Below are positions 24,021 to 62,423 of a stretch of 64,000 nt of DNA, piece by piece. Every line of letters begins with the position of its first letter. Position 1 is the stretch's first letter. The notes below the pieces were generated by a model. The model did no database searches. It was not told where the DNA came from and saw only the letters and a program-made list of their open reading frames with translations. The position numbers and the translations under genes are program-made. Origin of the DNA: Sabellastarte sp. h YS-2021 (taxonomy: Eukaryota > Annelida > Polychaeta > Sabellida > Sabellidae); assembly GCA_964017235.1 (NCBI GenBank), contig OZ024928.1, positions 82,393,566 to 82,457,565 on the forward strand, in the 5' to 3' direction.

Positions 24021-24130
24021 GCGCGAAGACGAGAGGTCGTCTGTTTTTTGGAGAAACTTTTATTTTGATTTATATCTGTTACAGGATATATTTTGATAAA
24101 TTCTTTGTGTAGAAGTGTTGTTTAATAACT

Positions 24131-26314
24131 ATGGATTCACCAGGACAAAGGCGGGGATCGTGCGGCCATAAGATGGCTGGCTTTGATATGCATGAGAAGT
24201 GTGCTCGTTGTCGAGACAAAGGTCTGGGTAAAGATCCCTGCATTGTGGGAGGTGCGATATGCAAGATTTGTGACAATTTTACAGCAATTCAACGTGATAT
24301 GCTGGCCACTCCACAGTATCAAATTCGCAAGGACAAGAAAGCGGGTTTGCTAGTGTCACCACGAGATGTAACTGTGCTGTCTCCAGTTAATTCTTCTCAA
24401 CAGCCAGCTAGTACTGCGCATGCTCAGCAGACGATTTCTGAAGATGACAGTGCGCATGCGCAGGACCTCCCTGGGGGTAGCGATAATGTAAGTTCTTCAG
24501 ATTTTGTTTCCAAAAAAGATTTTGACAAATTAAGTGACCAGCTAGATGAGAAATTCTCTCGGTTTGAAGCACTCTTATCAAGAGGCAATATATTTGCTAC
24601 CCCCAAAGTACCGGTTCAGGTTTCAAACCCACCGGTTTCTGATCAGCCATTCATAGATCCTGCCTCTGCCCGAACCACCGGTCCGGTGCGGTTTCCGGCA
24701 GTACAGGCTAGTACAGGATCAGATGGCAAGAAAGATTCAAAGAAGAAGCACAAGTCTTCTCATCATAAATCTTCCAAAGCAAAACCGGTTCCGGTTGAGG
24801 AAAATACCGGTCCGGTACAGAAAAAGCCCTCTGATACTGCACTTCAACAAGCTAAACCGGTACCGGTCGGGGAGATGACCGGTCCGGTCAGGGCATACCA
24901 AACTGACACCTTTGTACCCAAGGAACCGGTTCCGGTTGTGGATGGATCTTTTACCGGTCCGGAACCGGCTGCACCGGCTGGGGAGCCGTTTATTAGAAAC
25001 CTTGCTTCTGCTGGTGGCTCAGATAATATGTCCAATGTTGAACACCCCTTAACAGATGTCTTGCCTGTGGCTTCAGACGAACCACTCTTTGGGGATCATA
25101 CATCAACAGATGTTGTGGATAGGGATCATACATCACCGGATGTTTTGGATAGCGAGGATGGTGAACTTTCTGAATCAGACACTGATAAACCAGAAAAGAA
25201 TGAAGAAATGAGTTACAGGGAAACAGTTCGTTCCATCAGGGCCTTTATGGGCTGGAACTTTATCCCTGACTTTGAGTTTGAGTACAGTGACCCGGATAAG
25301 TCCAACAATCCGTGGCGTGGAAAAAATCCGAAGACAAGTTCAAAGGTGTCAGTAGCCATGCCAGCAGACGATTGGCTCTGTCAGAAGCTGGAGAGGATTA
25401 ATCTGACTGTAGCTGAGGGTTACCCTTCCCGAAGTCAAGAAGCTGGTGGTTTGCGTACTGACCAATTCATACGCACCCCTAAACCACAGGATAAATGGTA
25501 TCCCATGCATAAGTTAAAGACAGATGGTCCCCAGCGACCAGGTAGAAAGCTGTTCAACTGGCATGGTTCTGAGGCGAAACTAAATGCTCAATTCTCAAGA
25601 ATTGTCAAACCAGCTGCATATCTCGCAACAGGTCCCGTGTCTCGTCCCATATCGCAAGAAGTACTACGCAGATGGGAGAGGTGCGCCCGAGAGGGTACTT
25701 ACACAGTGAACCATGCAGCTGGTTTCAGCAGATGCACTAGCGAGATTCAAGATCAGATGGCACATCACATAACTTTCCTACAGACTCATCTCAGTAAGGG
25801 CAAGTCAGCCAAGGAGGTGTCTGAAGCACTTAAGGAGTTAAGGGATTTATGTGCTTTCCACCAGAATGTATCTGTCTCTCTTGGGACAGCTCTACAGCAC
25901 CTGGCTGATAGCCTTTTTGTGCAGCTGGGGAACTTCATTCTGATGCGTCGGGACTCTTATTTAGATCATGTTCGTCCCGGTATGAAGATGGACACTTGGA
26001 ATGAACTGAGGAATGCTGCTCTTTTTGGATATGGGTTATTTCCCGACGCGGCCTTGAATGTCGCGGAACAAGATATCAACAAGTTTGAGACACAACATGT
26101 GTCGGTCCAGTCTCGAGTTGGTCCCCAGCACCAACAGAAGACCAAGTATCGCTATAAACCGTATGAGAAGAAGGAGGCTAAGACCATGGTTCAGCCGTCA
26201 TCTGCTCCTCAACAACCTTGGCGACAGTTTGGGTCACGAGGTCGTGGCCGTGGGCGTGGTTCTACTAACCACCGTTTTTCCAAGTATGCCCGAGGTGGCA
26301 AAAATTATAAATGA
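24131..26314 (+). CDS. DIRS Gag-like protein (727 residues)
   Basis: The N-terminus carries a Cys/His cluster (CGHKM, CARCRDKG, CKICDNF) resembling the zinc-binding start of other DIRS Gag proteins. The middle is low complexity, with repeated KPVPV..TGPV motifs encoded by recurring ACCGGT/CCGGTTCCGG words (24600-24990). The C-terminus is basic and Gly-rich (GRGRGRG), as in RNA-binding tails. It overlaps the RT frame, an arrangement usual in this family. It looks whole. Confidence 0.8.
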   Translation: MDSPGQRRGSCGHKMAGFDMHEKCARCRDKGLGKDPCIVGGAICKICDNFTAIQRDMLATPQYQIRKDKKAGLLVSPRDVTVLSPVNSSQQPASTAHAQQTISEDDSAHAQDLPGGSDNVSSSDFVSKKDFDKLSDQLDEKFSRFEALLSRGNIFATPKVPVQVSNPPVSDQPFIDPASARTTGPVRFPAVQASTGSDGKKDSKKKHKSSHHKSSKAKPVPVEENTGPVQKKPSDTALQQAKPVPVGEMTGPVRAYQTDTFVPKEPVPVVDGSFTGPEPAAPAGEPFIRNLASAGGSDNMSNVEHPLTDVLPVASDEPLFGDHTSTDVVDRDHTSPDVLDSEDGELSESDTDKPEKNEEMSYRETVRSIRAFMGWNFIPDFEFEYSDPDKSNNPWRGKNPKTSSKVSVAMPADDWLCQKLERINLTVAEGYPSRSQEAGGLRTDQFIRTPKPQDKWYPMHKLKTDGPQRPGRKLFNWHGSEAKLNAQFSRIVKPAAYLATGPVSRPISQEVLRRWERCAREGTYTVNHAAGFSRCTSEIQDQMAHHITFLQTHLSKGKSAKEVSEALKELRDLCAFHQNVSVSLGTALQHLADSLFVQLGNFILMRRDSYLDHVRPGMKMDTWNELRNAALFGYGLFPDAALNVAEQDINKFETQHVSVQSRVGPQHQQKTKYRYKPYEKKEAKTMVQPSSAPQQPWRQFGSRGRGRGRGSTNHRFSKYARGGKNYK

Positions 26315-28613
26315 CAATCATTGTACAAACCCACACAATCAAATAATTCCAAAGATAGTGGGTCAAAACATCAGCCCTCAAAACTTTCCAAAGACTGTAT
26401 ACTCAAGAACTGCTGTAATTCCTGTTCCTATTGTTGTCGGTCCCGGGCAGCCGCAAAAGAAAGGCCTAAGTCCCGATCTTTGTCAGACAGAAATAAAACA
26501 TGTCAAAAGTGCTTCTTTTGTCTCTCCTTGTCGTTCTGTCCCTCATGTACCAAATGTCCACAATGTTGCAGAAAATCCTCCTGTAGGATGCAGGTTGCAC
26601 AGGTTCTGGGAAACGTGGCTCAGCCTGGGTTCAAATCCTCGGGTAGTCTCCATCTTGAAGGACGGTTACAACCTCCCTTTCAAGATGAGGCCCCCATTGA
26701 CCAGGTGTCCTCTGATAATCAGCGGATACGCCAACCCTCGCAGAAACAAGTTTTTGAAGGAGGCGTTGCAGTCCCTGATTACAAAACAGGCCGTAGAAAA
26801 AGTAGTGGTTCGGGCTTCTCTGGCCTTTTACAACCGGCTGTTCATAGTTCCCAAACCGAACAACAAATGGCGTCCAATCTTGGATTTGAGCAAACTCAAT
26901 CTTTTCCTCCACTCGGAAACCTTCAAAATGGAAACTCCGGAGACCATCCGGCTATCCCTTCAAAAAGGCGAATGGGTCACATCGCTGGATTTCAGCGATG
27001 CCTATTTCCACATTCCCATCAACCCAAGGTCGAGGAAGTATCTCCGGTTTCACCTGCACGGTCAAACCTTCCAGTTCAGGGCTCTGCCGTTCGGCCTAGC
27101 GACGGCTCCTTTGGAATTCACAAAGGTGGTGAAGGAGGTGAAATTGATGGCCCAGTCCAGGGGTATAAGGATCCACCAGTACCTAGACGACTGGTTGCTT
27201 CGAGCGCCCTTTCGGGAGGCTTGTGTGAACCAAACGCGGACCCTGATGGCTCTGTGTCAGCAGTTGGGATGGTTAGTCAATTTGCAAAAGTCGGAACTTG
27301 TTCCCCAACAGGAGTTCAACTTTGTCGGTTATCATTTCGACCTCTCCAAGGGTCTAGTGAAGCCGACTCAGGAGAGGTGGCAAACCCTAACTCAAAAAAT
27401 AAAGATGCTAATGAACAGGGACCATTGTTCGGTCCGAGAGTTCATGTCTCTCATAGGTTTGTTGACAGCCACAGAGAAACAGGTGGTTTCGGGGCGCCTT
27501 CACATGAGACCGATTCAGTGGCACTTGAAGAATCACTGGCACGTGCCAGAGGTACTAGAGAAGGAGATTCCTCTTCCCAGATCTCTGTACCCTCATCTGC
27601 AGTGGTGGTTGGACGAAAACAATGTGCTCAGCGGCCAACCTCTTCATCCTCTACAACATGCTCTGCAGTTGTTTACCGACGCCTCAAACGAAGGTTGGGG
27701 CGCGCACTTAGGAGACCACACGGCAAAAGGAGTTTGGTCGGACTCAGAAAGCCAGTTGCACATAAACTTTCTCGAGCTAAAGGCGGTCCTTCTGGCCCTC
27801 AAGAAGTTCGAGCAACAGTGTTGGGGCCAGATAATTTTGATAGCCACGGACAACACAACGGTTGTCTCATACATCAACAAGGAGGGGGGTATGAGATCAG
27901 GCTCACTTTGTGCCCTCCTCTGGAGACTGCTTTCCTGGTGCAATCGCAGACAGATAGTTCTAAGGGCCAGGCACATTCCGGGAAGGCTGAATGTGATAGC
28001 AGACAAATTGTCCAGGAGCACTCAGGTTATTCAGACAGAATGGTCCCTCCTGCAGGAAGTCTTCGACCACTTATGTGCCAGGTGGCACACTCCCCGAGTG
28101 GATCTCTTTGCAACAAGGTACAATCACAAACTACCCAAGTTTGTGTCCCCAGTACCCGATCCACAGGCATGGAGAGTAGATGCTCTCAGCCTGAATTGGG
28201 AGAATATGGATGCCTACGCGTTCCCTCCTGTGTCTCTTTTGGGCAAGGTGGTGTCCAAGATCCTAGATCAGGGAGTTCACAGGTTGGTTCTGATTGCTCC
28301 AGGGTGGCCCAACATGCCGTGGTTCTGGGATCTAGTCAGCATGTCTGTTCAGATTCCTCTCTCCCTTCCAAACGTGGAGAACCTGCTGACCCAACCGTTC
28401 AATCAGTGTCCCCACAGAGATCTCCTAGGGCTCAACCTCCACGCCTGGCTCCTAGAGCCTCTAGCATACAGGCACAAGGATTCTCTAATGAAGTGGCAAC
28501 GCGAATTGAGGCTCCTCAAAGACAATCAACCAGAGCCATCTATGAATCGAAGTGGTCCATATTTGTCAAATGGTGCGAGTCACACAAGGTGGACTTCGGG
28601 TCACCTTCTTTAA
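26058..28613 (+). CDS. DIRS reverse transcriptase-RNase H polyprotein
   Basis: Reverse transcriptase motifs are clear: TSLDFSDAYFHIPI, LPFGLATAP and QYLDDW. RNase H follows (LFTDASNEGWGAHL, then LELKAVLLAL, ATDNTTVV and RARHIPGRLNVIADKLSR). The C-terminal part (DLFATRYNHKLPKFVSP, then AYAFPP and APGWPNMPWF) is the block that in DIRS elements is often annotated as methyltransferase-like. The first residues overlap the Gag frame. It looks whole. Confidence 0.92.
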   Translation: MSRNKISTSLRHNMCRSSLELVPSTNRRPSIAINRMRRRRLRPWFSRHLLLNNLGDSLGHEVVAVGVVLLTTVFPSMPEVAKIINDNHCTNPHNQIIPKIVGQNISPQNFPKTVYSRTAVIPVPIVVGPGQPQKKGLSPDLCQTEIKHVKSASFVSPCRSVPHVPNVHNVAENPPVGCRLHRFWETWLSLGSNPRVVSILKDGYNLPFKMRPPLTRCPLIISGYANPRRNKFLKEALQSLITKQAVEKVVVRASLAFYNRLFIVPKPNNKWRPILDLSKLNLFLHSETFKMETPETIRLSLQKGEWVTSLDFSDAYFHIPINPRSRKYLRFHLHGQTFQFRALPFGLATAPLEFTKVVKEVKLMAQSRGIRIHQYLDDWLLRAPFREACVNQTRTLMALCQQLGWLVNLQKSELVPQQEFNFVGYHFDLSKGLVKPTQERWQTLTQKIKMLMNRDHCSVREFMSLIGLLTATEKQVVSGRLHMRPIQWHLKNHWHVPEVLEKEIPLPRSLYPHLQWWLDENNVLSGQPLHPLQHALQLFTDASNEGWGAHLGDHTAKGVWSDSESQLHINFLELKAVLLALKKFEQQCWGQIILIATDNTTVVSYINKEGGMRSGSLCALLWRLLSWCNRRQIVLRARHIPGRLNVIADKLSRSTQVIQTEWSLLQEVFDHLCARWHTPRVDLFATRYNHKLPKFVSPVPDPQAWRVDALSLNWENMDAYAFPPVSLLGKVVSKILDQGVHRLVLIAPGWPNMPWFWDLVSMSVQIPLSLPNVENLLTQPFNQCPHRDLLGLNLHAWLLEPLAYRHKDSLMKWQRELRLLKDNQPEPSMNRSGPYLSNGASHTRWTSGHLL

Positions 28614-29515
28614 CTCAGGTAGCGGAATTTCTCCTATTCCTTTTCAAGGAGAAAAATCTTCAACCTAGCACCATAGATGGCTATAGAACTGCTATAGCCG
28701 ACAAAATTGGTTGTGACAAGGTTAATTTTGGTAAAGACGAAAACCTTACCCGCTTGCTAGACAGTTTCCATAGAGATAAACCCAAGGGTCTTCGAGGAGT
28801 CCCTAGCTGGAATCTGTCTCTGGTCTTGCATCAATTAACCCAGTCCCCCTTTGAACCCCTTCGAAAGGCGTCTCTGAAACATCTTACCTTCAAAACGGTG
28901 TTTCTCCTGGCTTTGGGCTCGGGCAAAAGAAGGAGTGAGATTCATGCCTGGGTACACAGGAACATTAGACATCAGGAAGATTGGGCTAATGTTTCTTTAT
29001 TCCCTTCTCCTTGTTTTTTGTCCAAGAATCAGTTGGCTAAAGAAGGGCCTTCTTCAGTAGCTCCGGTAATTATTCCGGCCTTGGCCCCTACGTTGGATAA
29101 GTCTCTCAAGGAGGATAGAACCTTATGTCCAGTTCGGGCTTTGCGTTATTACCTGGACAAGACCAAAGACCTCCGTTCCGGCAAACAGTTGGTCTTTGTG
29201 TCTTTCAAGAAGAACTTCAATAAGGACATCGCTCCTGCTACGATTTCTTCTTGGATTAAACAAACCATCTTGTTGTGCTATCGATTGTCCAATGAGGATG
29301 CACAACAATTACATCAGGTCAGAGCCCATGATGTGCGGGCCTTTGCAGCTTCTAACGCTTTTCAAGGAGGTGTGTCCTTGGACCAGATCCTCTCAGCCTG
29401 CCACTGGAAGTCGCACAATACCTTCACCCAATTTTATTTGAAGGATGTAGCATGGGCTGATGCTGACCTGTACCATTTAGGACCAGTGGTCGCAGCCCAG
29501 CACATACGCGAGTAA
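28430..29515 (+). CDS. DIRS tyrosine recombinase
   Basis: The recombinase occupies the last third of a frame that stays open from 26321. An N-terminal SAM-like core-binding region (IYESKWSIFVKWC, QPSTIDGYRTAI) is followed by the catalytic domain: GSGKRRSEI with the first Arg, RAHDVR supplying the H-x-x-R pair, then HWKSHNTFTQFY with the nucleophilic Tyr. The upstream 2.1 kb of this frame lies over the RT gene and does not look like protein, so I place the functional start near 28430. It looks whole. Confidence 0.88.
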   Translation, partial: AQPPRLAPRASSIQAQGFSNEVATRIEAPQRQSTRAIYESKWSIFVKWCESHKVDFGSPSLTQVAEFLLFLFKEKNLQPSTIDGYRTAIADKIGCDKVNFGKDENLTRLLDSFHRDKPKGLRGVPSWNLSLVLHQLTQSPFEPLRKASLKHLTFKTVFLLALGSGKRRSEIHAWVHRNIRHQEDWANVSLFPSPCFLSKNQLAKEGPSSVAPVIIPALAPTLDKSLKEDRTLCPVRALRYYLDKTKDLRSGKQLVFVSFKKNFNKDIAPATISSWIKQTILLCYRLSNEDAQQLHQVRAHDVRAFAASNAFQGGVSLDQILSACHWKSHNTFTQFYLKDVAWADADLYHLGPVVAAQHIRE

Positions 29516-30352: not shown

Positions 30353-31411
30353 CTTCCTACACCTATCCCCACTGATTATGCAAAACATAGCAGATTGATC
30401 TGTGTGAAATACAATGGATATTTTTCAGCAGCCTAGGCTGTCTCCATCAAATGCAAAAAGTATTTTCGGCAGTTTGAGAGCTATCTGCATTGACAAGTAT
30501 TTCCATTGGCTAAGGCTCTGTACTTTAAACATAATAAGTATTTCCAAATGCTTTGACTATTTGCATTGAATATTACAAGTATTTCCAGCTGCTTAAGCTA
30601 TTTGCATTGAATGTACTTTTCTATTTCCAGCAATTGTGACCATTTGCATTGATTGTGATAATTATTTCTATGGGCTTTATGACATTTGTTTTGAATAGAA
30701 TAGGCATTTCCAATAACTTCAGCTAAATGGATTCCAACACAAGTCACAAGTATCTCTGTTCAAACTTACTGCATTAATTTGAATTATGGCTTATTCTTTC
30801 CTAAAATCTGTGCAACAGTCACTCTGCCAGCACTCGGTAAATTGGGCTGTGCTGTGTAAACATGCTTACTTTTAGGAATTAGAGATTTAACTGAGTGTAG
30901 CTCAAGGGTTTGTCTCAGAGTAAGTTTAAAGTCTCTTATGTTTAGACCCTTTCTGTCACACACAAATGAGTGGGTATGTGTATTGCACTAGTTGCATTTT
31001 AAAGGCAGGGTGTTCTTGTAAAGTTACTTTTCAAGACTTCAGTAAGTTAGGCTTAATACAGAATGACACTTGATATGAGAAAATATGCCTTTGTTAGGGT
31101 GAGCAAGCTGTCCTTGAAATAGTTCACACAGGTTTTTGGCCTTGTAACATTCAACTGCTTTCACAGTCACAATTTTAATTTGTGTGAATTGGTAAATTGT
31201 TAAATTTTTGTGAATATAATAAGTATATAGTTTACTATTATCTATTCATATATGTTGGCTTTCTTTCAATAAATAAATATTTTCACATCCCTTTTTATGC
31301 AAAATTTCACCTCTTCTTTCTGTAAAACAATACACTATCTTTTAACCACATAGTCATTGTTCACAGATTGAATTTTATTAAGGTTATGTCCAATTATGTT
31401 TCCTCAATATC
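30353..31411. other. Intergenic region between the MITE and the PhnZ-type gene
   Basis: From about 30420 to 30780 there are loose repeats of TTTCCA..GC plus TTTGCATTGA, an old degenerate tandem repeat of about 60 bp. The rest is AT-rich. The 3' UTR of the PhnZ-type gene enters from the right, with its poly(A) signal at 31379-31374. Confidence 0.45.
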
Positions 31412-33476
31412 TCAGAATAAGCAGAGTCTCAACTTGTCTTCATAATACTGTATAGGATGTAATGTACAGTTTTCCACTTTGGCAGCTTCATCCCATTTCC
31501 TTGCTTTTATTATGACATCAAAGTGAGGATTTTTCTCAAATTCAGAAGCCTCTATATCCGTCATTGGGCCACCTTGATGTTCCAATGTCATTTTGCTTGC
31601 AGCTGATAATTCTGAAATATCAATACATTACAGAACCACGATGTACTTGAAGTATTGAAAGAGACAGTAGTTACAATGATTAAAAGTTGACACAAAGTCA
31701 CACTTATGATGAATGATTCAATCCACAGCATTTCAGTATTATATTTTTAAGGATAAAATCTTTGATGTTCTTGGTATTTCAGGTGGTTGATCACAGTAAG
31801 ATACATGTAATACTATTGCATCATAATGATTTAACAATTTAGCAAAAGCTGTTTAAAATACATTTCAAACACATAGTTTTACAGAAATTATCTAAGCATA
31901 AATATCACATATATGTGGTGTAGATTTTACAACCTGACTCCATACTTCATGACTTCATAAGACAACATCTTCAAATTTTTGGAACAAAATCAACTTGAAT
32001 ATAAGAATATTTCCCCGATAGTGTACATACTGTTATAATAGTCTGAGTTCTTGAAGCAAAGGTATCTTTTTGCATTCACATGATTTCGTGCTATTTCAGT
32101 AATGATGTCTGGTAATCCAAGGTCTTCGAGGAATTGGGCGCCCTTTTCCTCGTGTTGTTTTATTCCCAATTCTATTCCATCTGTCCTCATGTTATTATCC
32201 CTACTGCATTGATTATGTCCCAAAAGATGACCCACATCATGCAAAAATGCTCCAAGGACCACCTGAAAGACATAAGCCTGATTTCAGTGAACTATGGGAC
32301 CACTTAATCTAATTACAAACCTTAAGCCCAGAGTGAAAATATCGAGATATTCCAATTTGAATTGAAATTTATCATATCACTTCAACAGAACAAAATATGC
32401 TTTCAAGATTATCAAATAAGACAAATCGTGTATTAAAGTTTAAGTGCAGCCTACCAGTGTGTAACTTGGCCTATTCTAATAGATCTTGACAGATATGATT
32501 TAGATGCTAGAATTTAATCATAATGCAATGCTAGTCTGAATGCTACATGTAAGGGGTTCCCCTTAAAAGTGCCATTAGCCAAGATGGAGGTATCCAAAAT
32601 ACCAGATTGGTATGAGTACAACACAGTGATTTAAAATTAAAAAAAACATCAAAATTGACATCTCAAAAAAGTATCAACATATGACAATATTTGTATGACT
32701 AAAGAGTCTTTTACTCTAGTAAAGACATGTAGTTTCTTGCACAAAGGTATTCATATTGATTCCACTTAAATTTACAGACTGAGACTTAATGAATTTGTTA
32801 TAAAGGAGTTTGAATAAAAGACCTTTCAAAATGAGAACAAATTTCTACTTTCCTTTGTTATAGAAACACCAGCTGAACAGGAAGAGCATAATACAATGAA
32901 ATTATACAATCGAACTTTTCGGGTAGATAAAACAGAATAAACAGTATCTTGGCAATAAATACTTAAGAAACAACTAGCAAGAATATGATGCATTCAAAAT
33001 CTCTTTCTATCTGAGTTATGATTACTGCATCAGTGAACCTGTTTTGTGGTTACAAAACATTTGGCATTCAAGAATTGACACATTCTGGAAGATGTCAGAA
33101 CTTTTGTGCCTGAATTCCTTTTTGATTTAAAGGATGGGTCAAAGTTAAAGTATGATGCTGTATGATTCATAACCCATGATTTCTACCCAACTGATATGAT
33201 ATGACCCATACACAACGAGTTAAAGGAGACAATAAATCCAAAATAAATCTACATCTGGTGTATGCAAATCACTTAACAGAAAGCACAGCCATGGGCTAAC
33301 ATAAAAAAAGTTCTATACTACTTTACCAGATCTGAATGGCCCTCATCTTCAGCCAACATGGCACACTGAGTTGCATGTTCTAGCTGAGAAACTGGTTCTC
33401 CAATGTAATTTGCAGCACCAAAGTTCCTATACAGACTGAATATTTTATCGATTATAGCCTCAGTTCTTGCATCCAT
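31412..33476 (-). CDS. PhnZ/TmpB-type HD-domain diiron oxygenase (oxidative C-P bond cleavage), complete 3-exon gene
   Basis: Minus-strand exons are 33476-33327, 32262-32031 and 31611-31412. All introns are GT..AG, phases agree, and the joined CDS is 582 nt (193 residues plus TGA). Known PhnZ oxidises 2-amino-1-hydroxyethylphosphonate to glycine and phosphate; TmpB handles the trimethylammonio analogue. Residues seen: Y24 and E27 in NYIGEPVSQLEH, H34, the H58-D59 pair in FLHDVGH, H87, H111 and D168 in RKWDEAAK. These match the bacterial ligand set as I recall it, exactly up to D59 and offset by 7 after a short insertion. H62, K115, S133, T136 and R165 fall where substrate-contact residues are expected, and QGGPM is conserved. 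I chose the ATG at 33476 because it reproduces this register. A CAG acceptor just upstream (exon from about 33489) suggests an unseen 5' UTR exon. AATAAA lies at 31379-31374. No signal peptide is seen, so it is probably cytosolic. The exact substrate is inference. Confidence 0.9.
32263..33326 (-). other. Intron 1 of the PhnZ-type gene
   Basis: 1064 bp, GTAAAG donor and TTTCAG acceptor on the minus strand. No mobile element is recognised. Intron 2 (31612-32030) is 419 bp and also plain. Confidence 0.8.
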
Positions 33477-60320: not shown

Positions 60321-61695
60321 TTTTTTTTTTTTATTTATCATTTTTTTGCAGCACATACAAGGTAGGACATAGTACAAGAGGCACAAAACAAAAAAAACAA
60401 AACAAAAAAAAACAACAAAAAACAATACAAGGAACTACAGAAGCTAAAAAAAAAAAAAAAAAAAAAAAAAACACACAAGGAACTACGTAAGACAAATTAC
60501 AATTAGATAGGTTTTAGTTAACAGTATTTTGCTATCATGTTATATGTTTTATTCACCCAAGAAAAAGACTGTTGAAAATTCCCCATGTTTTCCTAAACTG
60601 TTCCTGTTTAAAATCTAGTTTGGCAATAAATTCTTGTTCTTGATATATTTTCTGCAGACAAAAGCAAAAGTCATCAACAGATAAAAATCCTTTCTTGCGT
60701 GATGTTTTAAATATATACTTTTTAGCTACTAAATAAATTAAATTATTAGCAGTGTTTTTTTGCTGTCCTTTCTCAGAACCCAAGATTATACAAGTTGGAT
60801 TGAGATTTAACCCAATTTGTAACACAGGTTTAAGTTTGTCTTTTAGTTGAGACCAAAACTGTTTCACAATTTGGCATTCCACAAATAAATGTGTTATGGT
60901 TTCCAATTGATTATGACAAAAGCTACACTTTCCATCATCATGTTTACTGATTTTCAATAGGAGATCATTTGTACCCAAGATTCTATATAGTACTCTGATC
61001 TGGAGCCATATCAAATCATTGTCCATTACTGTTTTAAAACAGATTCCAAAAATGTTCCTCCATAAGCTTTCATTTGGAGTTTCGTCATAGAGATTCATCC
61101 AATATGAAATTGGTGTATTTTCTATACTTAATCCATGATAGTTTAAAGACCTATAAAAGTCTTGACTTCCCTTTTCGGAATTACATAAGACCTTTATCTG
61201 ATTAGGATACAATGGCTTCTGAAATATCTTTGGGTCCAGTTTATATTTTTTTAAATAGATCTTTACAGTCGATGTTATTCTATAGTATTCAAGAAAATTA
61301 GTTTTAAATGAGTATGATTGCTCCAATTCCCTTTTTGACAAGAGTTCCCCGTTAGTACTAAGCAAGTCACCTATTAAGATTATACCTCTCTCAAACCATT
61401 TTGGAAAAAACAGTTCTATTTTAGATATATTTGCGTTGCACCATAGCGACTGGCTCAAAGCATTTAAATTCTTTTCCATCTGAAACGCTTTTAAAAATTT
61501 ACTCCAGCTTTGTAGAACATCAGTCCAAAACTTGTTTGTTGTTTTCTTTGCAAGGCTTTCAGAATAGTAATTACCAAGTAGTACCAATTTATGAGTTGAC
61601 CCAAGATAGCACTTTGCCAAAATGGCCCAAATTGACTGAGGATTCATATACAGTCTACGCACCCAAGTTATTTTTAATGCAGAGAGGAAATGTGA
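60321..61695 (-). mobile_element. 5'-truncated LINE with poly(A) tail and 15-bp target duplication
   Basis: On the minus strand the insert ends in an A-run (plus-strand T-run at 60316-60332) and is flanked by direct repeats ATGCCAAATATTTTT at 60306-60320 and 61696-61710. The encoded part, from about 61695 to the stop at 60553, is the C-terminal third of an L1/Tx1-like ORF2. It starts HFLSALKITWVRRLY, downstream of the RT core, and ends with a Cys/His knuckle (CSFCHNQLETITHLFVEC). The frame is still open, so the copy is fairly young, but it lacks endonuclease and RT and cannot move itself. Confidence 0.85.
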
Positions 61696-61710
61696 ATGCC
61701 AAATATTTTT

Positions 61711-62423
61711 CCCTAATATCACATATTTTGCTTTTTGCTCATGGTTTGTTATCATATTTCATGTTCTATATTTATCCATAGAAACACCCCTGGATGATGC
61801 ATTTTTCAAAAGGGTGGGGGATGGGTGTTGGCGCCGCCCCATCCCCCAACTTGGCGGGGGGGGGGGGGGTGGTGGGGGTGACTGAGATAAAGAGACTACT
61901 GAATTGTCCGGGAGCAGTGGGTGATAATTACATATTTTACAACTGGCATCTAGATTGTCAGCACATATAATTGTGGGAAAACTTAAAATATTAGAAACGA
62001 ACCATAAATCTGAAGAAATTATAAACTTTTATTTCGTATTTTTGTAGGTTTACTTAATCAAACTGCCATATTTTGTTTTGATGAACTTCCTGTTAATAAT
62101 CAATCAATTGTGGGATGTACTAAAACCCATCTTTTTTTTAATCCAGGAATTGTAGAAGTGGAGGGGAGACGGTGTTTATGCAGATAAATACTGTTTGAAC
62201 CCTGTTAAGTTGACCCTCAAGGGATCAATAAAATATTTCAATTTTAATAGGATTTCCAGGTATGTCAGCATTTCAGTAGAAAATACTTGATATTTACTTT
62301 CTATCAAAAGGGAATTCTACTGAACACAGTTCTACTCAAAGGGATTTGACTGTATAAAGTCAGACAAGGTTTTATAAGTGCCGTTAAAGTACAATGAGTA
62401 GTAATAACTTGTTTGTATTACAG
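61711..62423. other. PLC-beta intron 1, includes a G-rich run
   Basis: Bases about 61854-61880 hold a run of more than 14 G followed by GGTGGTGGGGGTG, a possible G-quadruplex. No exon or repeat family is otherwise recognised. Confidence 0.5.

Follow-up and report, generated by a model that had tools for sequence, protein, structure and literature searches.

We describe here an animal gene for an oxygenase of the PhnZ type, an enzyme family that is itself known from bacteria. The gene lies in a 64-kb stretch of DNA from the annelid Sabellastarte sp. (the window, by which we mean the whole stretch analyzed), corresponding to 82.39–82.46 Mb of a 190.5-Mb contig in an assembly of 1.786 Gb and 647 contigs. 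Its product, hereafter the PhnZ-like protein, is very probably a mixed-valent diiron oxygenase of the PhnZ class that belongs to the animal itself. The explanation that we favor overall, with a rough probability of 0.7, is that of a probably cytosolic enzyme whose likely substrate is (R)-1-hydroxy-aminoethylphosphonate (1-hydroxy-AEP), which may derive from aminoethylphosphonate (AEP) that the animal makes itself or takes up with its diet. The new part is the animal PhnZ, found in a genome with a broad set of phosphonate genes.

An initial annotation of the window had joined three exons into a 193-residue HD protein, and in silico splicing of these exons, which lie on the minus strand, reproduces this length exactly, with the TGA stop codon at 31412 (Table 1). 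Both introns have GT-AG borders. In a search of PDB sequences, residue 9 of the protein was paired with residue 9 of PhnZ and H111 with PhnZ residue 104, and the start codon is therefore at the expected place; the second pairing also bears out the earlier remark that H87, H111, and D168 stand seven positions later than in bacterial PhnZ. Because no extension precedes the PhnZ start, the protein is probably cytosolic. A 3′ splice-like stretch, CCCCTCAG, was noticed by eye to end 10 bases upstream of the start codon, and for this reason a non-coding leader exon is possible. When the 1.79-Gb genome was searched in six frames with the protein as query, four candidates were obtained, namely the three exons (E values of 1.7e-47 for exon 2, 1.8e-37 for exon 3, and 4.7e-25 for the remaining one) and one place at E 0.86. 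No second copy was found by this search, and within its reach the gene is single copy. A six-frame search with the HD family (PF01966) gave nothing at E 0.001, the PhnZ-like gene included; it was not sensitive enough, as the gene was recovered from the same genome when the protein served as query.

The relatives that can be reached in the databases searched are bacterial, as would be expected had bacterial DNA contaminated the assembly or entered the genome very recently; the viral and phage collections gave one relative each. This origin is nevertheless extremely improbable, as the gene carries two introns and a polyadenylation signal and sits about 82.4 Mb into a 190-Mb contig, and the best bacterial identity is about 44%. 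Contamination was rejected on the introns, the signal, and the position in a large contig, and the spliced structure that had been put forward against it in the initial annotation holds.

The family of the protein was assigned by score. Among the 177,635 distinct sequences of the PDB four matches were significant, one to TmpB (6npa, E 5.5e-33) and three to PhnZ (E from 8.6e-31 to 1.4e-30), and with such E values in a search space of this size the match to TmpB and PhnZ is not due to chance. Of the NCBIfam models (curated cut-offs in brackets), TIGR03276, the phosphonate degradation HD-domain oxygenase, ranked highest at 191.7 bits (214.6), followed by TmpB at 159.3 (300) and by PhnZ1 at 132.2 (300). 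The last of these, NF052439, represents the hydroxymethylphosphonate dioxygenase of the Gimesia maris type, which belongs to the same family and gives the lowest score of the three. Characterized PhnZ shows the same order of models (184.2, 138.5, and 117.0 bits), and several other relatives do likewise. The Pfam HD family was matched at 38.5 bits (cut-off 22). Animal myo-inositol oxygenase (MIOX) is also an HD diiron oxygenase, yet the Pfam MIOX family is matched at only 15.1 bits (cut-off 25), and a MIOX identity was rejected on this score. The protein also has the YxxE loop, which is found in PhnZ and TmpB and absent in MIOX (PMC8177086).

The active site is complete. All 13 residues named in the initial annotation are present in the spliced translation, comprising the diiron ligand set H...HD...H...H...D (H34, H58, D59, H87, H111, and D168), the YxxE residues Y24 and E27, which align with Y24 and E27 of PhnZ, and H62, K115, S133, T136, and R165, which we take to be phosphonate-contact residues. 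The first eight, together with K115, S133, and R165, are identical to the residues of PhnZ. The protein was aligned with 22 relatives, consisting of three loci from the genome collection, 17 of 27 plasmid matches, and the PDB-aligned stretches of PhnZ and TmpB. It keeps all 23 columns that do not vary among the relatives (20 or more of the 22 rows filled) and 32 of the 34 that agree to 90% or more. Across the 23 rows K115, S133, and R165 are identical, position 136 is S or T, and H62 occurs in 22; the YxxE glutamate is replaced by H in Asticcacaulis, and the region is absent in Aquicella. Since the site is retained at about 40% identity, selection seems to have acted on the oxygenase site. A loss of the oxygenase role, leaving either an HD phosphohydrolase or a protein without catalysis, is worth considering, because phosphohydrolases make up most of the known HD proteins (PMC8177086) and the branch leading to the protein is long. 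Such a loss is quite improbable given Y24, E27, the six diiron ligands, and the unbroken set of invariant family columns, and a plain HD phosphohydrolase is disfavored by the YxxE residues in particular. PhnZ-type identity with a full active site, as it was originally proposed, is borne out by the PDB E values, the ranking of NCBIfam models, the diiron and YxxE residues, and the tree.

The 23 rows gave a maximum-likelihood tree in which the PhnZ-like protein, PhnZ, Hymenobacter, and Aquicella form one group (support 100/97) and the TmpB clade stands apart. The grouping has support of 97/98 when two long rows are dropped, and when Aquicella is dropped too, the PhnZ-like protein, PhnZ, and Hymenobacter hold together at 91/95, under the software's own support mark. 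Forcing the protein into the TmpB clade is rejected in the approximately unbiased (AU) test (p-AU 0.022), although p values from these tests, here and below, are weakened by having been chosen after the tree was known. The protein therefore did not fall outside of the PhnZ/TmpB clade, the placement that the initial annotation had raised against its own claim; MIOX and PhnZ1 proteins were left out of this tree, and MIOX is judged by its Pfam score. In these trees the animal protein groups with characterized PhnZ rather than TmpB, on a long branch.

Identity is 38.5% to PhnZ (65/169 aligned residues), 42.1% to TmpB (67/159), and highest to Hymenobacter (80/188). Since TmpB tops the PDB list with an identity slightly above that of PhnZ, the substrate is not readable from identity. 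A TmpB-like enzyme that acts on N-methyl- or trimethyl-1-hydroxy-AEP and releases sarcosine or glycine betaine would agree with this order of matches, and methylaminoethylphosphonate is present on snail N-glycans (PMC6994554). We consider such a substrate unlikely, because the tree groups the protein with PhnZ and rejects the TmpB grouping, and because, as seen by eye in the 23-row alignment, the protein lacks the TmpB-type DxxHE stretch and has a one-residue-longer loop before H111, common to PhnZ, Hymenobacter, and Aquicella. The main substrate is somewhat more probably 1-hydroxy-AEP than a methylated or other analog.

Comparison with characterized systems places the animal protein as follows. 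PhnZ of bacterium HF130_AEPn_1 (PDB 4mlm, 4mln, 4n6w, 4n71) is of the same HD family and has the same six diiron ligands, YxxE loop, substrate-contact residues, length, and start, and the two proteins fall in the same group in all three trees; the animal gene differs in its lower-than-40% identity, the insertion between H62 and H87 described below, its two introns, and the lack of a clear PhnY partner. TmpB of Leisingera caerulea (PDB 6npa) shares the family and the active-site residues and differs in its separate clade and in TmpA, for which no clear orthologue was found in the animal genome. The one eukaryotic case of PhnZ-type activity met in the literature searched is PhoF of the fungus Fonsecaea multimorphosa, likened here by description only, in which PhnY and PhnZ are fused in one protein (PMC10574752), whereas the animal PhnZ part stands alone.

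Gene neighborhoods of the bacterial relatives were examined for 17 of the 27 plasmid matches, with flanks of 5 kb (6 loci) or 3 kb (11 loci), and 13 of these loci are annotated. Near the HD gene the annotated loci carry a TauD/butyrobetaine-type dioxygenase (3), a PhyH dioxygenase (2), phnX (2), a C-P (carbon-phosphorus) lyase cluster (2), a phnM-type gene alone (1), or no phosphonate enzyme (3). On the Nostoc and Variovorax plasmids, genes for PhnZ-type HD oxygenases are located within or adjoining the C-P lyase clusters. In a Chloroflexi locus, a TmpA-like gene lies just upstream of the HD gene. As the plasmid gene tables are incomplete, gaps were read directly in the three loci without phosphonate enzyme. 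In Hymenobacter no hydroxylase is annotated within 5 kb, and no extra long frame lies between the Na/Pi symporter and the major facilitator superfamily (MFS) transporter; it is one intact near relative without an evident hydroxylase neighbor. The Novosphingobium locus has a phospholipase C beside the HD gene, and overlapping frames. On the Aquicella plasmid (positions 3139-6689 of locus L018), two transposase-like frames of 348 residues each, inverted and near-identical, enclose a short gene for an MFS protein and a PhnZ-like gene truncated at its N-terminal end, and Aquicella was rejected as a working solitary PhnZ on account of the truncation and these flanks.

We searched the genome for the PhnY/TmpA-type partner that the initial annotation had suggested to look for, and homologs of the two 2-oxoglutarate (2OG) oxygenase families, PhyH and TauD, are present with no clear orthologue among them. 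TauD-family searches gave at least seven loci of the gamma-butyrobetaine dioxygenase type (Table 1), and the two copies on contig C2 seem almost the same across the exons read. A TmpA orthologue was sought by protein, by TauD family, and by TmpA model, and none stood out: six of the seven loci were scored as joined exons, and in all six TIGR02409 (gamma-butyrobetaine dioxygenase) leads the TmpA model, with margins of 8 to 24 bits. Several loci carry PhyH exons, and three of four exon peptides match the PhnY model at 17.0–20.8 bits (cut-off 500) and one has no match, the model used being that of methylphosphonate hydroxylase. A three-copy PhyH subgroup is marked by a GRIDH motif, and its C-terminal exon is the best of six exon peptides against the PhyH proteins beside bacterial PhnZ-like genes, a match of only 39–45 residues at 33–41% identity. 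In one copy (C5:120.545M) the exon is followed by a run of near-identical partial-exon repeats in open frame. These homologs allow the view that the PhnZ-like protein is the second half of a complete two-step oxidative AEP pathway in the animal, with one of its own PhyH/TauD-type 2OG oxygenases in the place of PhnY or TmpA, and in 5 of the 13 annotated plasmid neighborhoods, as in the Chloroflexi locus, an oxygenase of this kind does accompany the HD gene. We regard this pathway as doubtful, since the scored TauD loci all fit gamma-butyrobetaine dioxygenase better, the PhyH scores on the PhnY model are so low, and Hymenobacter, the closest intact bacterial relative, has no annotated hydroxylase nearby.

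Further phosphonate genes were found by family searches of the genome. The exon searches for the mutase, decarboxylase, transaminase, and PhnX of Table 1 also match 6, 13, 14, and 13 of 14 control bacteria (none over cut-off), and gene identity therefore rests on the joined exons, whose peptides were assembled by eye. Joined exons reach 341.5 bits for phosphonopyruvate decarboxylase (cut-off 312.5), 274.3 for the phosphonoacetaldehyde hydrolase PhnX (cut-off 220), and 347 on NF010006 for the PhnW-type AEP transaminase (cut-off 296). For phosphoenolpyruvate (PEP) mutase they reach 277.7 bits on TIGR02320, and the runner-up model, phosphonopyruvate hydrolase, has only 133.4; the first segment is identical at 119 of 151 positions to PDB 1m1b, presumably the PEP mutase of Mytilus edulis. 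The genes for PEP mutase and phosphonopyruvate decarboxylase, consecutive enzymes of AEP synthesis, are arranged head to head with about 46 kb between the matched exons. The transaminase exons share a contig with the PhnZ-like gene, at a distance of about 9 Mb, and a further PhnX-type exon series occurs on a short contig (C480:21891-23310). As the genome carries exons for the mutase, decarboxylase, transaminase, and PhnX, it is plausible that the animal makes AEP and already has a hydrolytic (PhnW/PhnX) exit for it.

Table 1. Coordinates of the PhnZ-like gene in the window and of other genes in the genome (C followed by a number denotes a contig of the assembly).
Feature	Position	Strand	Details	Basis
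Exon 1, PhnZ-like gene	33327..33476	-	residues 1-50, start codon at 33476; Y24, E27, H34	spliced translation
Intron 1, PhnZ-like gene	32263..33326	-	1064 bases, phase 0, GTAAAG...TTTCAG	
Exon 2, PhnZ-like gene	32031..32262	-	residue 51 to part of 128; H58-D59, H62, H87, H111, K115	
HD-motif codons (H58, D59)	32236..32241	-		computed by hand from exon coordinates
Intron 2, PhnZ-like gene	31612..32030	-	419 bases, phase 1, GTATGT...TTTCAG	
Exon 3, PhnZ-like gene	31412..31611	-	part of residue 128 to 193, and TGA; S133, T136, R165, D168	
AATAAA polyadenylation signal	31374..31379	-	first base is the 33rd after the stop codon	
PEP mutase exon series	C8:104164438-104186567	+		family search of genome
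Phosphonopyruvate decarboxylase exon series	C8:104089309-104118597	-		family search of genome
AEP transaminase (PhnW-type) exon series	C2:73454940-73467968	-		family search of genome
Phosphonoacetaldehyde hydrolase PhnX exon series	C1:34117717-34122600	-		family search of genome
Gamma-butyrobetaine-dioxygenase-like loci	C8:36.3M, C8:46.9M, C14:70.98M, C14:71.00M, C14:82.1M, C2:144.48M, C2:144.62M			
Three-copy PhyH subgroup	C3:31.01M, C5:120.545M, C5:120.567M		GRIDH motif	

Some other features of the window and assembly were noticed by eye. At 24113-29515 of the window, three long overlapping plus-strand frames resemble a retroelement of the DIRS type, including its reverse transcriptase and tyrosine recombinase, and at 60556-61758 a 401-residue minus-strand frame resembles the C-terminal part of a non-long-terminal-repeat (non-LTR) reverse transcriptase. 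The mitochondrial contig (C647; 15,345 bases) codes on both strands, with COX1, COX2, and COX3 on one and ATP6, ND5, ND4L, and ND4 on the other. Scanning for tRNA and Rfam families around COX1 gave no match. Positions of COX1 that are arginine under genetic code 4 become serine under the invertebrate mitochondrial code, and by eye they look conserved as serine, which we take to be their usual state. The identification as an invertebrate animal is well supported by this contig.

Since the PhnZ site is complete, the likely reaction is an O2-dependent cleavage of an (R)-1-hydroxyphosphonate. By analogy with PhnZ, H34, H58, D59, H87, H111, and D168 would hold an Fe(II)/Fe(III) pair, and Y24 would cap the second iron until the substrate arrives. 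In bacterial enzymes the YxxE tyrosine is on the second iron until the substrate binds, after which the glutamate meets the substrate amino group and the iron is freed for O2 (PMC8177086); E27 would likewise swing to the amino group upon binding and open the second iron to O2. A superoxo species would then abstract hydrogen from the (R)-1-hydroxyphosphonate, and the C-P bond would break to give phosphate and a carboxylate, which would be glycine if the substrate is 1-hydroxy-AEP.

As for the source of such a substrate, 1-hydroxy-AEP was first isolated from polysaccharides of an amoeba, and the (R)-form is not properly handled by bacterial PhnW-PhnX (PMC8154272). In bacteria phnZ accompanies phnWX clusters in 15 of 1,186 cases and phnWAY clusters in 24 of 75 (PMC8154272). 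Because the Sabellastarte genome also carries PhnW- and PhnX-type genes, a PhnZ serving 1-hydroxy-AEP is favored, and by this analogy a PhnZ whose substrate is (R)-1-hydroxy-AEP is a better reading than a proven AEP route of two steps. Its role may perhaps be the removal of 1-hydroxy-AEP arising from own or dietary AEP and poorly handled by PhnW/PhnX in bacteria, an idea for which we hold somewhat less than even expectation. The endogenous oxidative AEP route proposed originally needs changing, as the PhnW/PhnX-type genes provide a possible alternative exit and the hydroxylation step has no clear partner.

Several observations weigh against an oxygenase of PhnZ type that acts on 1-hydroxy-AEP in this animal. 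The protein lies under the curated cut-offs of TIGR03276, TmpB, and PhnZ1; characterized PhnZ (residues 9-177) and TmpB (residues 20-178) also miss 214.6 on TIGR03276, at 184.2 and 187.2 bits, as do five of eight bacterial relatives (one N-terminally truncated), with Hymenobacter, Armatimonadetes, and Nostoc clearing it, and we therefore read this cut-off as a threshold for annotation, not one that defines the family. There is a seven-residue insertion between H62 and H87 relative to PhnZ, the terminal branch is long (1.74), and the AU test weakly rejects the protein and PhnZ as a strict pair (p-AU 0.046). In the PDB the best match is TmpB, at slightly greater identity, and the tree neighbor Aquicella lacks the N-terminal part and with it the YxxE residues for a comparison. 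Among the PhyH and TauD homologs of the genome, none was recognized as a PhnY or TmpA orthologue, and no source of 1-hydroxy-AEP was identified among its 2OG-oxygenase genes. PEP mutase falls under the cut-off of TIGR02320 (319.6), and the transaminase misses TIGR02326 (327.9 against 400.8) and TIGR03301 (319.1 against 360.8), shortfalls that we attribute to incomplete exons. Finally, the physiological role is argued from bacterial biochemistry.

The synthetic side of phosphonate metabolism in animals and the presence of PhnW- and PhnX-like proteins have been described before. An AEP pathway has been reported in coral (PMC3640398), PhnX-like and PhnW-like proteins are listed in snail hemocyte proteomics (PMC6281880), bdelloid rotifers express foreign transaminase, decarboxylase, and PhnX transcripts (PMC3499245), and a phosphonoacetaldehyde hydrolase is tabulated among coral genes whose affinities are bacterial, algal, or dinoflagellate (PMC4878875). 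PhnZ goes unmentioned in the excerpts of these four reports, and in the open-licence literature searched we found no report of an animal PhnZ or of oxidative phosphonate catabolism in animals. Automatic annotations of animal PhnZ homologs may well exist.

Phosphonates are described as more cryptic in eukaryotes than in prokaryotes (PMC10574752). Some invertebrates hold large phosphonate pools, e.g., in snail eggs and in a sea anemone (PMC6429109), and AEP decorates mollusc glycans (PMC6994554). It is tentatively conceivable that Sabellastarte runs a closed C-P economy, in which AEP is made for lipids and glycans, a part of it is hydroxylated by an own PhyH/TauD oxygenase, and PhnZ returns glycine and phosphate beside the PhnX exit; if so, the biosynthetic side, which is known, would have an oxidative catabolic counterpart. 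The occurrence of PhnZ beside PhnX and the genes of AEP synthesis makes C-P bond turnover in an animal directly testable, and it bears on whether invertebrates themselves, beyond their microbes, return phosphonate phosphorus to phosphate. PhnZ in bacteria splits very stable C-P bonds, and with a PhnZ of its own this animal may both build and dismantle such compounds.

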